Shown here piece by piece: positions 2,948-21,150 of a stretch of 36,011 nucleotides of DNA (its first letter is position 1; each line of letters starts with the position of its first letter). Made by a program: the position numbers and the translations under genes. The notes under the pieces are model-generated. The model saw only the letters and a program-made list of their open reading frames with translations, had not been told where the DNA came from and made no database searches. The stretch comes from a virus, in IMG/VR virus record IMGVR_UViG_3300048586_000218, positions 1-36,011 of that record. One strand, written 5' to 3'.

Positions 2948-3796
2948 GTGAAGAAGCCGACCTTGCTGCAGCAGAACCGAGTGAAGGTGTCAGAAGTTGT
3001 CACCCATAGCCGCTTGCGCCCCATCTCGGAGGCCGGCGTTGAAAGCCTGATCGCCTCGATCAACGAGACTGGCGTGATGAAGGACGCGATCCATGTCCGC
3101 AGGAAGAAGGACGGAAGCCTGCACCTGATTGCCGGCGGTCACCGCACCGAGGCTGCCCGCCGCCTGGGCTGGGAGGAGATCGAGGCCAAGATCTGGACCG
3201 ATGTGACCGACGACTGGGCACGGTTGATGGAGATCGACGACAACCTCGCCGGGGCCGAGATGAACGCGCTGGATACGGCGGTGTTTCTGGCAACCCGCAA
3301 GGCGGTCTATGAACGGCTGCACCCGGAAAGCCGAGCGGATGCCTTTCATGGCAATCAGCATACCGGGAAACTGGCGAGCGACATCGTGTCGTTCGCCACT
3401 GCGACTGCTGAAAAGTTCGGAGTCACGAAGCGCCATATCGAACGTATGGTCGCCGCGGGTGTGTGGCTTGGCCCTGACGAAGTCAGCAGACTTCGCGCAG
3501 CTCCACGGGCGGTCACCCTGAAAGACCTGACAGAGATCGGCAAGATCGGCACAGCGACCGAACGCTATGGCGTGGTTCGGCATCTGTCGGAAGGCACGGC
3601 AAAATCCGCCGCCGAAGCCCGGCGGCTGATCAAACCGGCCCATGCCGGCCCTGTAAAAGACCCTGTTGATGAGGCCTTCAAGACGGGCCTGACATGGTGG
3701 AAACGCGCGCCAATGGCTGCGCGGCGCCGGATGGTAGCCGAGCTTGAGGGCGACCTGCGCGAGTTGCTGGCGGATCTCGATCGGGGTGACGCATGA
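2948..3796 (+). CDS. ParB/Spo0J-like nuclease-domain protein
   Basis: This 282-residue protein has an N-terminal ParB/sulfiredoxin-type domain with the motif AGGHRTEAARRLGW at 62-75, the CTP- or substrate-binding box of the family. A helix-turn-helix-like region follows around 155-175 (FGVTKRHIERMVAAGVWL). ParB-type proteins of this kind are common just upstream of the transposase in Mu-like phages of proteobacteria. They probably act in DNA binding or transposition control rather than partition, since no ParA gene is present. The start is GTG with a GGGG-type site 8-10 bases upstream. The stop overlaps the transposase start (ATGA), so the two are co-translated. Confidence 0.8.
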   Translation: MKKPTLLQQNRVKVSEVVTHSRLRPISEAGVESLIASINETGVMKDAIHVRRKKDGSLHLIAGGHRTEAARRLGWEEIEAKIWTDVTDDWARLMEIDDNLAGAEMNALDTAVFLATRKAVYERLHPESRADAFHGNQHTGKLASDIVSFATATAEKFGVTKRHIERMVAAGVWLGPDEVSRLRAAPRAVTLKDLTEIGKIGTATERYGVVRHLSEGTAKSAAEARRLIKPAHAGPVKDPVDEAFKTGLTWWKRAPMAARRRMVAELEGDLRELLADLDRGDA

Positions 3797-7667: not shown

Positions 7668-7875
7668 CCCCGTGCATCTGGTGACCCGCCTGCGCGCAGT
7701 CTGCGAGTTGCATGGCGGGCCGGCGGAGGTCGCCCGCCTGTGCGGCCTGAAGCTGCCCTCGCTGGAGAGCTATCTGTCCGGCAAATGCCTGCCCGGCAGC
7801 ATGGCCCTGGCCGCAATCAGCCGGGGGCTCGGGGTTTCCGCAGACTGGCTGCTGTTCGGAGACGAGCGGGAATGA
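7651..7875 (+). CDS. XRE-type HTH protein (74 aa)
   Basis: Nearly the whole protein is one Cro/CI-type helix-turn-helix domain: AEVARLCGLKLPSLESYLSGKCLPGSMALAAISRGLGVSADWLLFGDE is the classic repressor pattern ending in the W-L-L-x-G box. It has no second domain, so it resembles a Cro-like or anti-repressor-type regulator. The ATG at 7651 lies inside the end of the upstream gene, with AGGAAGGAG upstream. It forms a tandem pair of small regulators with that gene. Confidence 0.7.
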   Translation: MQPALDPVHLVTRLRAVCELHGGPAEVARLCGLKLPSLESYLSGKCLPGSMALAAISRGLGVSADWLLFGDERE

Positions 7876-8081
7876 CCGGGATCGGCCCGACATCCGACAA
7901 CGAGATCCTGATCCGTGCAGGAAAGGTGTTGGGCCGCATCCAGACACAAGGCCCCCGCGCCCTGGGCGGGATCGCCTTTGACGAAATCGAAGCCATGGCG
8001 CTGGCGCTGCTGATCCTCGGCCTCAAGCCCCTCTGCCCCGGCCAGAATTTACCTTCTGTTAAACAAGCTCGGAAAGGCTGA
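7872..8081 (+). CDS. Hypothetical early protein (69 aa)
   Basis: This is a short unrecognised protein. It starts by ATGA overlap with the XRE gene and has GAGCGGGA upstream. The C-terminal half (AFDEIEAMALALLILGLKPLCPGQ) is hydrophobic and helical but too interrupted for a confident membrane helix. It ends five bases before the DUF3164 gene. Confidence 0.5.
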   Translation: MTGIGPTSDNEILIRAGKVLGRIQTQGPRALGGIAFDEIEAMALALLILGLKPLCPGQNLPSVKQARKG

Positions 8082-19054: not shown

Positions 19055-19966
19055 ATGGCCGTGATTACCGCCGAAATCCTTCAGGCCCTGAATACGGGCG
19101 TGAAGAAGAACTTCCAGGACGGCTATGCGCAGATGCGCGCGGGGGCCTTCTGGGACCAGGTCGCCACGCTGGTGCCCTCGACCACCGCGTCCAACACCTA
19201 TGGCTGGCTGGGCGATTTCCCGCAGCTGCGCGAATGGGTGGGGGACCGCGTCGTCAAGGATATCAAGGAATCCGGCTACTCGATCGCCAACAAGCTGTTC
19301 GAGGCCACCCTCGGGGTGCAACGCACCCAGATCGAGGACGATCAGTTCGGGCATTATTCGCCCATCGCGAAGTCGATGGGGCAGGAAGCGGCCCAGCATC
19401 CCGACCGGCTGCTGCAGGCCCTGATCACCGGCGCCGGTGCCGCGCTCTGCTATGACGGGCAGTATTTCTTCGACACCGACCACCCGGTCGCGGCCAATGC
19501 TGACGGCACGGGCGCGGTGACCAGCGTCTCCAACGTGGTCGCCGGCGCCAATCCGGCCTGGTATCTGCTGGACTGCTCGAAGGTGCTGAAGCCCTTCATC
19601 TTCCAGGAGCGCACCAAGCCCGAGCTGGAGATGAAGTTCGACCCCTCCACTTCGGACAGCGTGTTCAAATCCGACCGCTTCGAATGGGGCATTCGCTACC
19701 GTTGCGCCGTCGGCTTCGGCTTCTGGCAGCTGGCGCGCAAGTCCCAGGCCACGCTCGACGCCGCCGCCTTCACCGCCGGCCGTCAGGCCATGCGCGAGCT
19801 GAAGGGCGACGGCGGGCGCCCGCTGGGCATCGTGCCGAACATCCTGATGGTGCCGCCCGCCCTGGAGGCTGCGGCCGATGCCATCGTGAACGTCCGCACC
19901 CTTGCGGGCGGTGGTGACAACCCGAACTTCGGCAAGGCCAAGGTCGTCGTGATGGATTGGGCGTGA
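19055..19966 (+). CDS. Major capsid protein (Mu gpT-like)
   Basis: This 303-residue protein matches the Mu-like major head subunit gpT. Typical segments are LNTGVKKNFQDGYAQ, YGWLGDFPQLREWVGDRVVKDI, the E-loop-like KLFEATLGVQRTQIEDDQFG, and the YFFDTDHPV box. It assembles the icosahedral shell after scaffold removal. AAAAGGAG lies nine bases before the ATG, a strong site for a highly made protein. It follows the protease/scaffold gene by 6 bp. Confidence 0.93.
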   Translation: MAVITAEILQALNTGVKKNFQDGYAQMRAGAFWDQVATLVPSTTASNTYGWLGDFPQLREWVGDRVVKDIKESGYSIANKLFEATLGVQRTQIEDDQFGHYSPIAKSMGQEAAQHPDRLLQALITGAGAALCYDGQYFFDTDHPVAANADGTGAVTSVSNVVAGANPAWYLLDCSKVLKPFIFQERTKPELEMKFDPSTSDSVFKSDRFEWGIRYRCAVGFGFWQLARKSQATLDAAAFTAGRQAMRELKGDGGRPLGIVPNILMVPPALEAAADAIVNVRTLAGGGDNPNFGKAKVVVMDWA

Positions 19967-19968
19967 TC

Positions 19969-20340
19969 ATGAGCCAGCGTCTTCTGATCACCGCCGTCGC
20001 CGCCTCGGGCCTGTTCCATCGCTGCGGGCGCGGCTTCACCAGGGAAGGTGTCGTCGTCATCTATCCCGACGAGTTCACCCCCGAGGAATGGGAGCGGCTG
20101 AAGGCCGAGCCGATGCTGCACATCACGAAGGCCCCGGAAGGCGCCGAGGCCGAGGCGACCGCGGCCGACCTGAGGGCGCTGCTGCGCGCGGCGATCGGCA
20201 AGCTGGAGCAAGCCGATTTCGGGGAGGACGGCGTGCCGAAGGCGGATGTGCTGCGCAAGCTGCTGCCCGCGGGCACCAAAGGGGTCACCAGGTCGATGGT
20301 GGCCGAGGTCTGGGCCGAGCTGAAGCCGCCCGCAAGCTGA
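19969..20340 (+). CDS. Mu gp35/HI1506-like head-region protein
   Basis: This 123-residue protein has an N-terminal domain (LLITAVAASGLFHRCGRGFTREGVVVIYPDEFTPEEWERLKAEPMLHI). It resembles the small Mu gp35/HI1506 family, which has a Rho-like SAP/HeH-type C-terminal part; here that part is residues 65-123. The ATG at 19969 follows the capsid stop by two bases; an upstream TTG is less likely. Its role in head assembly is not established. Confidence 0.7.
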   Translation: MSQRLLITAVAASGLFHRCGRGFTREGVVVIYPDEFTPEEWERLKAEPMLHITKAPEGAEAEATAADLRALLRAAIGKLEQADFGEDGVPKADVLRKLLPAGTKGVTRSMVAEVWAELKPPAS

Positions 20341-20502
20341 TCCCGAGCGAAAGAACCGGTCGCGGACCCGCCCCTGCAAGGCCCGGAGAGAGGCACGGGG
20401 TGGGAGGTTCGAGTAGGCCAGCCGGGGGCGGACCCGGACGCGAACGTCGCAAGGGGGCGTGACAGCCGGAGAGACGGCACTTTCACATAGGAGAGATTAC
20501 CG
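20341..20502. other. 162-bp GC-rich leader before the Acb2/Tad1-like gene
   Basis: This is the longest gap within the head operon. It holds no open frame of note. CCGCCCC (about 20368-20374) can pair with GGGGCGG (about 20433-20439) to close a structured region, and several G-rich runs are present. No promoter was recognised. It may be a structured leader or processing site for the small downstream gene. Confidence 0.4.
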
Positions 20503-20706
20503 ATGACCGCTGCCCTCAAAGACGCGACCTGCGCGACCGCCGAACAGGCGCTGAAGGATTTCAAGGATGCGCTGCTTGCGGCGAAGCTGGATTGCGACGC
20601 GATCCTCGACCGCCTGCCGCAGAGCCGCGCGGCCGCGATCGCCCGCACCAATCTGGAGACCGGCTTCCTGTGGCTCGACCAGGCCGGCCGCGAGTTCGGG
20701 GCCTGA
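20503..20706 (+). CDS. Acb2/Tad1 hairpin-domain-like small protein
   Basis: This 67-residue helical protein ends in SRAAAIARTNLETGFLWLDQA. This matches the signature of the Acb2/Tad1 hairpin family (R-x3-[AI]-x-x-T-x-LE-x-[AG]-F-x-W-L/M). Members of that family include phage proteins that bind cyclic nucleotide signals and so block CBASS or Thoeris defence. The upstream helix (AEQALKDFKDALLAAKLDCDAILDRLP) fits the first arm of the hairpin. It is translated from a good AGGAGA site and lies between gp35- and gp36-like head genes, an unusual spot for an accessory gene. Family membership is judged by eye, and many family members have untested function. Confidence 0.6.
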   Translation: MTAALKDATCATAEQALKDFKDALLAAKLDCDAILDRLPQSRAAAIARTNLETGFLWLDQAGREFGA

Positions 20707-20709
20707 CCC

Positions 20710-21150
20710 ATGGCTTACGCCACCCAATCCGACATCACGGCGCTTTATGGCACCCAGGCACTGGTGGTCGCCGATCATGACCGCGACGGGGTGCCGGATA
20801 CCGTGGCCGTGACGCGGGCTTTGGCCATGGCGACGGGCGAGATGGATACCTACATCGCCCGGCGCTACACCCTGCCCTTGCCCGCCACGCCCGCGCATCT
20901 GGTGCAGCTTTGCGTGGACATCGCGCTCTATCGGCTGGCCCTCTCGCAGGACGTGGCGAGCGACGAACACCGCAAGCGCTATGAGGATGCGATCGGCACG
21001 CTGACCAAGATCGCGGACGGCCGCGCCATGCTGGTTCTGCCCGTCACCCCGCCCGAGGAAGGCGAGGAGCCCGAGATCACCGGCCCGCAGCCCATCGTCA
21101 CGGGCGGGCCGGAGCGCCTGTTCAGCCGCGAGAAGATGAGGGATCTGTAA
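20710..21150 (+). CDS. Head-tail connector protein, DUF1320 (Mu gp36-like)
   Basis: This 146-residue protein begins AYATQSDITALYGTQALVV and contains MDTYIARRYTLPLPATPAHLVQLCVDIALYRLA and RYEDAIGTLTKIADG. This is the DUF1320/gp36 pattern, a helical adaptor that joins the portal vertex to the tail. It starts 3 bp after the Acb2-like gene stop. The C-terminal tail (EEGEEPEITGPQ) is variable. Confidence 0.88.
   Translation: MAYATQSDITALYGTQALVVADHDRDGVPDTVAVTRALAMATGEMDTYIARRYTLPLPATPAHLVQLCVDIALYRLALSQDVASDEHRKRYEDAIGTLTKIADGRAMLVLPVTPPEEGEEPEITGPQPIVTGGPERLFSREKMRDL

Follow-up and report, generated by a model that had tools for sequence, protein, structure and literature searches.

Acb2 in the strict sense is a homohexamer with cyclic di- and trinucleotides as ligands, and in a typical Acb2 the N-terminal part contributes to the cyclic dinucleotide pocket. 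Tad1 binds gcADPR (PMC12043709, PMC10419184). The 67-residue protein described here comes from a Mu-like phage; the window, i.e., the whole stretch of DNA analysed, is the complete IMG/VR virus record IMGVR_UViG_3300048586_000218 (36,011 nucleotides). The closest solved relatives of the window protein are Acb2 homolog 43 (PDB 9ptq, with 3'cADPR) and T4 Vs.4. Homolog 43 is about as long as the window protein (its crystal chain has 76 aa) and shares its ILD-LP--R-----T--E core, and its single-sequence match to the window protein is weak (E 0.084). Acb2 of Pseudomonas phage PaP2 (p26) and T4 Vs.4 share the superfamily hairpin with the window protein, and p26 also the R-x6-T core, but both are longer (89–93 residues) and carry an N-terminal GY...N..K segment; unlike the window gene, the p26 gene lies outside the head genes and on the opposite strand. 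Tad1 (CbTad1, PDB 7uav and 8kbf) likewise has a C-terminal two-helix hairpin with an R...T...E core and is a weak structure match, whereas its N-terminal beta-sheet domain (PMC12043709) has no counterpart in the all-helical window protein, which is too short to hold one. The product of gene 44 of Rhodobacter phage RcapMu (RcapMu gp44), which bears its depositors' annotation 'similar to cyclic-nucleotide binding domain', is encoded directly before gp36 in another Mu-like phage; in contrast to the window protein, it has 96 aa and the full typical Acb2 N-terminus, and the two are ~31% identical (alignment A2).

A short gene between gp35-like and gp36 genes

The window carries Mu transposase, Mor, terminase, Mu portal, F, protease, gpT, gp36, sheath, tape measure and baseplate genes. 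The 67-aa gene (20503–20706, + strand) lies, as the sequence-only reading had placed it, between a gp35-like gene (19957–20340, +; weak FluMu_N match, phrog_6188) and the Mu gp36-like head-tail adaptor gene (20710–21150, +; PF07030, 98.7 bits; phrog_195 head-tail adaptor), which defines the slot considered below; the major head subunit gpT is encoded upstream (19055–19966, +; PF10124, 381 bits). Two further genes of the window may be mentioned. At the left phage end, a 353-aa protein (37–1098, −) whose N-terminal domain resembles the HSDR_N nuclease of type I restriction is possibly the product of a carried defence gene, and a ParB_N-domain protein (2948–3796, +) is encoded directly upstream of the Mu transposase gene.

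Judged from its sequence, the 67-aa open reading frame (ORF) is a genuine gene, being stop-bounded, preceded by a good Shine-Dalgarno sequence and matched by a relative with 73% identity under purifying selection. Its translation has 67 residues, exactly as had been stated, and the stop-to-stop frame around it has only 71 aa, so the protein is not a shortened version of a longer frame. The Shine-Dalgarno sequence AGGAGAG (20489–20495, +), read directly from the DNA, lies upstream of the ATG, and the stop codon is 3 nt from the gp36 start. The 73% identical counterpart, in the same position on a 5-kb contig (L002), also encodes 67 aa, and gp36 next to it is 97% identical. The dN/dS values between the two genes (~0.03 for residues 1–20 and ~0.10 for residues 47–67) indicate strong constraint; from this relative and the constraint at both ends, we therefore regard the ORF as a real, evolving gene. 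The central third behaves differently: in residues 21–46 (20563–20640), 15 of the 26 codons are changed and 39 of 78 bases differ, while both ends are nearly unchanged, a pattern that may reflect recombination or rapid change. In single-sequence searches, none of 50,697 phage records yielded a relative of the 67-aa protein, and in the genome collection neither a single-sequence search nor a three-sequence profile found one.

A decaying remnant or a spurious ORF in GC-rich DNA is very improbable and already largely refuted. The ORF is short and is overlapped by large reverse-strand open frames, as happens throughout this GC-rich window, and this is what such an explanation can draw on; the Shine-Dalgarno sequence, the identical length in L002, the strong constraint at both ends and a family profile score far above those of shuffled sequences all argue against it.

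Membership in the Acb2/Tad1 hairpin superfamily

Our evidence from Pfam, sequence profiles, an AlphaFold model and viral structure matches supports placing the window protein in the Acb2/Tad1 hairpin superfamily (PF24729). The Pfam score is marginal (27.4 bits against a cut-off of 27, over residues 32–58 only; 26.1 bits, slightly below the cut-off, in a six-frame search of the window), and further family tests were run for this reason. Other proteins encoded before gp36 score higher (31.7 bits for the L002 counterpart, 41.9 for L003, 45.8 for L018 and 50 for RcapMu gp44). A profile of five relatives (L003, L018, RcapMu gp44, PaP2 p26 and the printed fragment of Acb2 homolog 43), built without the window protein or L002, gave the window protein 30.9 bits, compared to a maximum of 12.8 bits among 2000 shuffles; the next-best frame of the window reached 8.5 bits. 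When a profile of the slot proteins, including that of the window, was searched against the whole PDB, the best solved match was homolog 43 (9ptq, E 4.7e-5), followed by Vs.4 (7uq2, E 8.9e-4) and then by p26 and Tad1. A 34-member family profile, composed mostly of proteins of other phages, matched p26 (E 9.5e-11), Vs.4 (E 2.1e-8) and Tad1 (E 0.006). The window's own group aligned with 24 typical members by hhalign at E 5.3e-6; against p26 as a single sequence, hhalign gave no informative match. All 34 members of alignment A7, the window protein included, match PF24729, and they match no other Pfam family at E 0.001. PADLOC had no model matching the 67-aa protein.

The core R-x6-T-xx-E motif is present at the start of helix 2 (codons for R42, T49 and E52; 20626–20658, +). 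In alignment A7, R42 and E52 are invariant and T49 is conserved in at least 90% of the members, and all three are kept in the window protein. The N-terminal GY...N..K segment of typical Acb2 members is absent from the window protein, L002 and L003. Because this segment is missing, together with the short N-terminal helix, the window protein is not filed as an Acb2 in the strict sense. Nor is it filed as a Tad1, since it has no beta domain: the N-terminal four-stranded beta-sheet is absent from a 67-aa protein predicted to be all-helical.

AlphaFold2, run with shallow and deeper alignments, predicted two antiparallel helices (residues 3–36 and 42–66; pLDDT 86), i.e., the two-helix hairpin that the sequence-only reading had called for. 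Among the best 12 structure matches to predicted viral proteins, all six with a name are Acb2/Tad1 hairpin proteins (E 0.2–1.5). Several of these named matches have 64–71 residues and carry the same domain name, so the length of 67 aa is not exceptional; the earlier statement that it falls at the short end of the family has to be softened. Two-helix hairpins are a common fold. Comparison with solved structures gave Z scores of 7.2 for Vs.4 and 5.9 for 9ptq, which are not above those of unrelated helical hairpins. For the first model, no Acb2 or Tad1 chain was among the Foldseek matches listed for the PDB, and nothing was significant; for the deeper-alignment model, CbTad1 chains were present as weak matches (E above 2). 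The hairpin assignment made from the sequence alone thus agrees with Pfam, the independent profile, the profile matches to solved Acb2, Vs.4 and Tad1 chains, the predicted hairpin and the recurrence of the family before gp36.

The slot before gp36 in other Mu-like phages

The strongest new evidence for the Acb2/Tad1 assignment is the position of the gene. Relatives for comparison were found through gp36, and the slot was defined as the space between the gp35-like gene and gp36. It holds family members in three of these relatives (L002, L003 and L018), and family members also lie directly before gp36 in RcapMu (gp44) and in L057, a locus found through a DNA element and not through the protein. 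A search with the typical form of the family returned 80 loci, of which 25 (22 distinct at 90% identity) have gp36 as the next gene, compared to the 1–2 of 80 that we estimate would be expected by chance in a phage of ~55 genes. L058, counted among the 25, and L057 are one contig, and the L057 protein was in the query; in two further loci (L069 and L120) no start was placed by our script and adjacency to gp36 comes from the frame match only. In the 23 loci with a placed start, the gap between the family gene and gp36 is −4 to +6 nt. The slot before gp36 is therefore a favoured address of the Acb2/Tad1 hairpin family, which raises the prior for membership of the divergent window protein; the comparison of gene neighbourhoods that had been suggested as a check thus shows undoubted Acb2-family genes recurring at this position in related phages.

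In most close relatives the slot either has no gene or holds something else, which argues that the 67-aa gene is cargo and no core head protein. At least 11 other relatives found through gp36 have an empty slot, and most close relatives keep gpT, the gp35-like gene and gp36 although they have no slot gene. In L016 the slot is empty, and a PF24729 protein is instead encoded directly after the endolysin-like gene of the same record (L052, 1111–1368), which gives the family a second address. A further PF24729 match (L053, 4938–5150; record of L038) is close to the end of a Mu-like contig and distant from gp36. Unrelated ORFs occupy the slots of L056 and of L019 (88 aa; 7738–8004). The L019 prophage looks rearranged at the slot, and no recognisable gp36 follows the RNA-like element on that contig (L161). 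Small, similar-looking ORFs beginning MTTKVTV were seen in the slots of L057 (3276–3022, −; 84 aa), together with an Acb2-family gene, and of L056 (11756–11974; 72 aa), and may be a second cargo family.

It is quite unlikely that the window protein is a head or neck assembly factor, that is, a hairpin of sponge origin recruited to aid the folding or assembly of gp36 or of other connector proteins. Such a role would explain the location within the head operon and the close coupling to gp36, at 3 nt in the window and within the −4 to +6 nt measured in related loci. Most close relatives, however, retain gpT, the gp35-like gene and gp36 without the slot gene, the family member of L016 lies after the endolysin and not in the slot, and an unrelated ORF stands in the slot of L056. 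Comparison with Pfam and PHROG found no match of the 67-aa protein to a structural family, including the structural head protein that had been named as the competing outcome.

A conserved RNA-like element of 142 bases (20341–20482, +), recognised by matches to model R1 and by covariation, lies between the gp35-like gene and the slot. It recurs directly ahead of the gp36 slot in several Mu-like phages that otherwise differ (L056, 11605–11753; L057, 3401–3251; L097, 2821–2969, and L157; L144, 10806–10952; L150, 4290–4439; and, weakly, L016). Six pairs show compensatory change against 2.9 in shuffles, counts that lean toward the structure of the model because R1 was trained on four of the sequences. 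Taken by itself, the window copy folds no better than its shuffles (z −0.09). Searched against Rfam, the window stretch matched nothing at E up to 1, and nine loci matched nothing at gathering thresholds. The Mu-gpT-DE phage RNA was considered as its identity and rejected on the absence of an Rfam match in the window stretch and on weak matches in L056 that were implausible.

A putative sponge for a nucleotide alarm signal

A nucleotide-signal sponge is the best reading of the window protein. The explanation that we consider probable is that a short, all-helical member of the superfamily, encoded by an accessory gene in the gp36 slot, sequesters a nucleotide alarm signal. The 67-aa gene would be accessory cargo of the recurrent slot immediately ahead of gp36 in Mu-like phages, and its translation most likely accompanies that of the late head genes. 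If the product behaves like Acb2, Vs.4 and Tad1, its helical hairpins would assemble into an oligomer, and this oligomer would sequester a host-defence signal, either cyclic oligonucleotides of the CBASS type or cyclic ADP-ribose of the Thoeris type, which would keep the suicide effector off. The late-gene location fits two published observations: phages deleted for acb2 escape from CBASS through capsid mutations (PMC10419184), and Thoeris senses the major head protein (PMC12043709).

The ligand of such a sponge may differ from that of a typical Acb2. In Acb2, we take the dinucleotide pocket to use Y11 and K26 and the trinucleotide site to lie near R67 and T74, and p26 carries all four residues at those positions. 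Going by these pocket residues, the dinucleotide site of the window protein is expected to be lost or rebuilt. With residue roles assigned from conservation and from reviews (PMC12043709, PMC10419184), a trinucleotide or a cADPR-type ligand would, weakly, be expected over a typical cyclic dinucleotide because the N-terminal GY...N..K part is absent while R42, T49 and E52 are kept. Alternatively, the ligand of the hairpin might be another small molecule or a protein, for instance one that acts in nucleotide signalling other than CBASS and Thoeris, and the window protein would then look like a sponge without being an anti-CBASS or anti-Thoeris one. The missing N-terminal part of the typical dinucleotide pocket and the high divergence of residues 21–46, even from the 73% identical relative, speak for this alternative; we consider it unlikely, given that R42, T49 and E52, where conservation in the family is highest, are retained and that the nearest solved relative, likewise short, was crystallised with 3'cADPR.

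Returning to the sponge, a broader scheme can be drawn for the stretch before gp36, which we hold to be tentative and rather doubtful. The stretch might be a dedicated counter-defence slot in which a conserved structured RNA element precedes small genes that can replace one another and that often encode nucleotide-signal sponges. Through coupling to gp36, the sponge would be made exactly as the capsid proteins linked to the triggering of CBASS and Thoeris accumulate; the window protein would then be a minimal sponge, reduced to the hairpin and changed in its ligand.

The 67-aa protein adds a short and divergent sponge candidate to the Acb2/Tad1 superfamily. More useful is the demonstration of a single precise address in Mu-like phages at which genes of the Acb2 family recur, an address that can be mined for new anti-defence genes, including the unrelated small ORFs found there, and the minimal hairpin form could reveal which parts of a sponge serve which signal.
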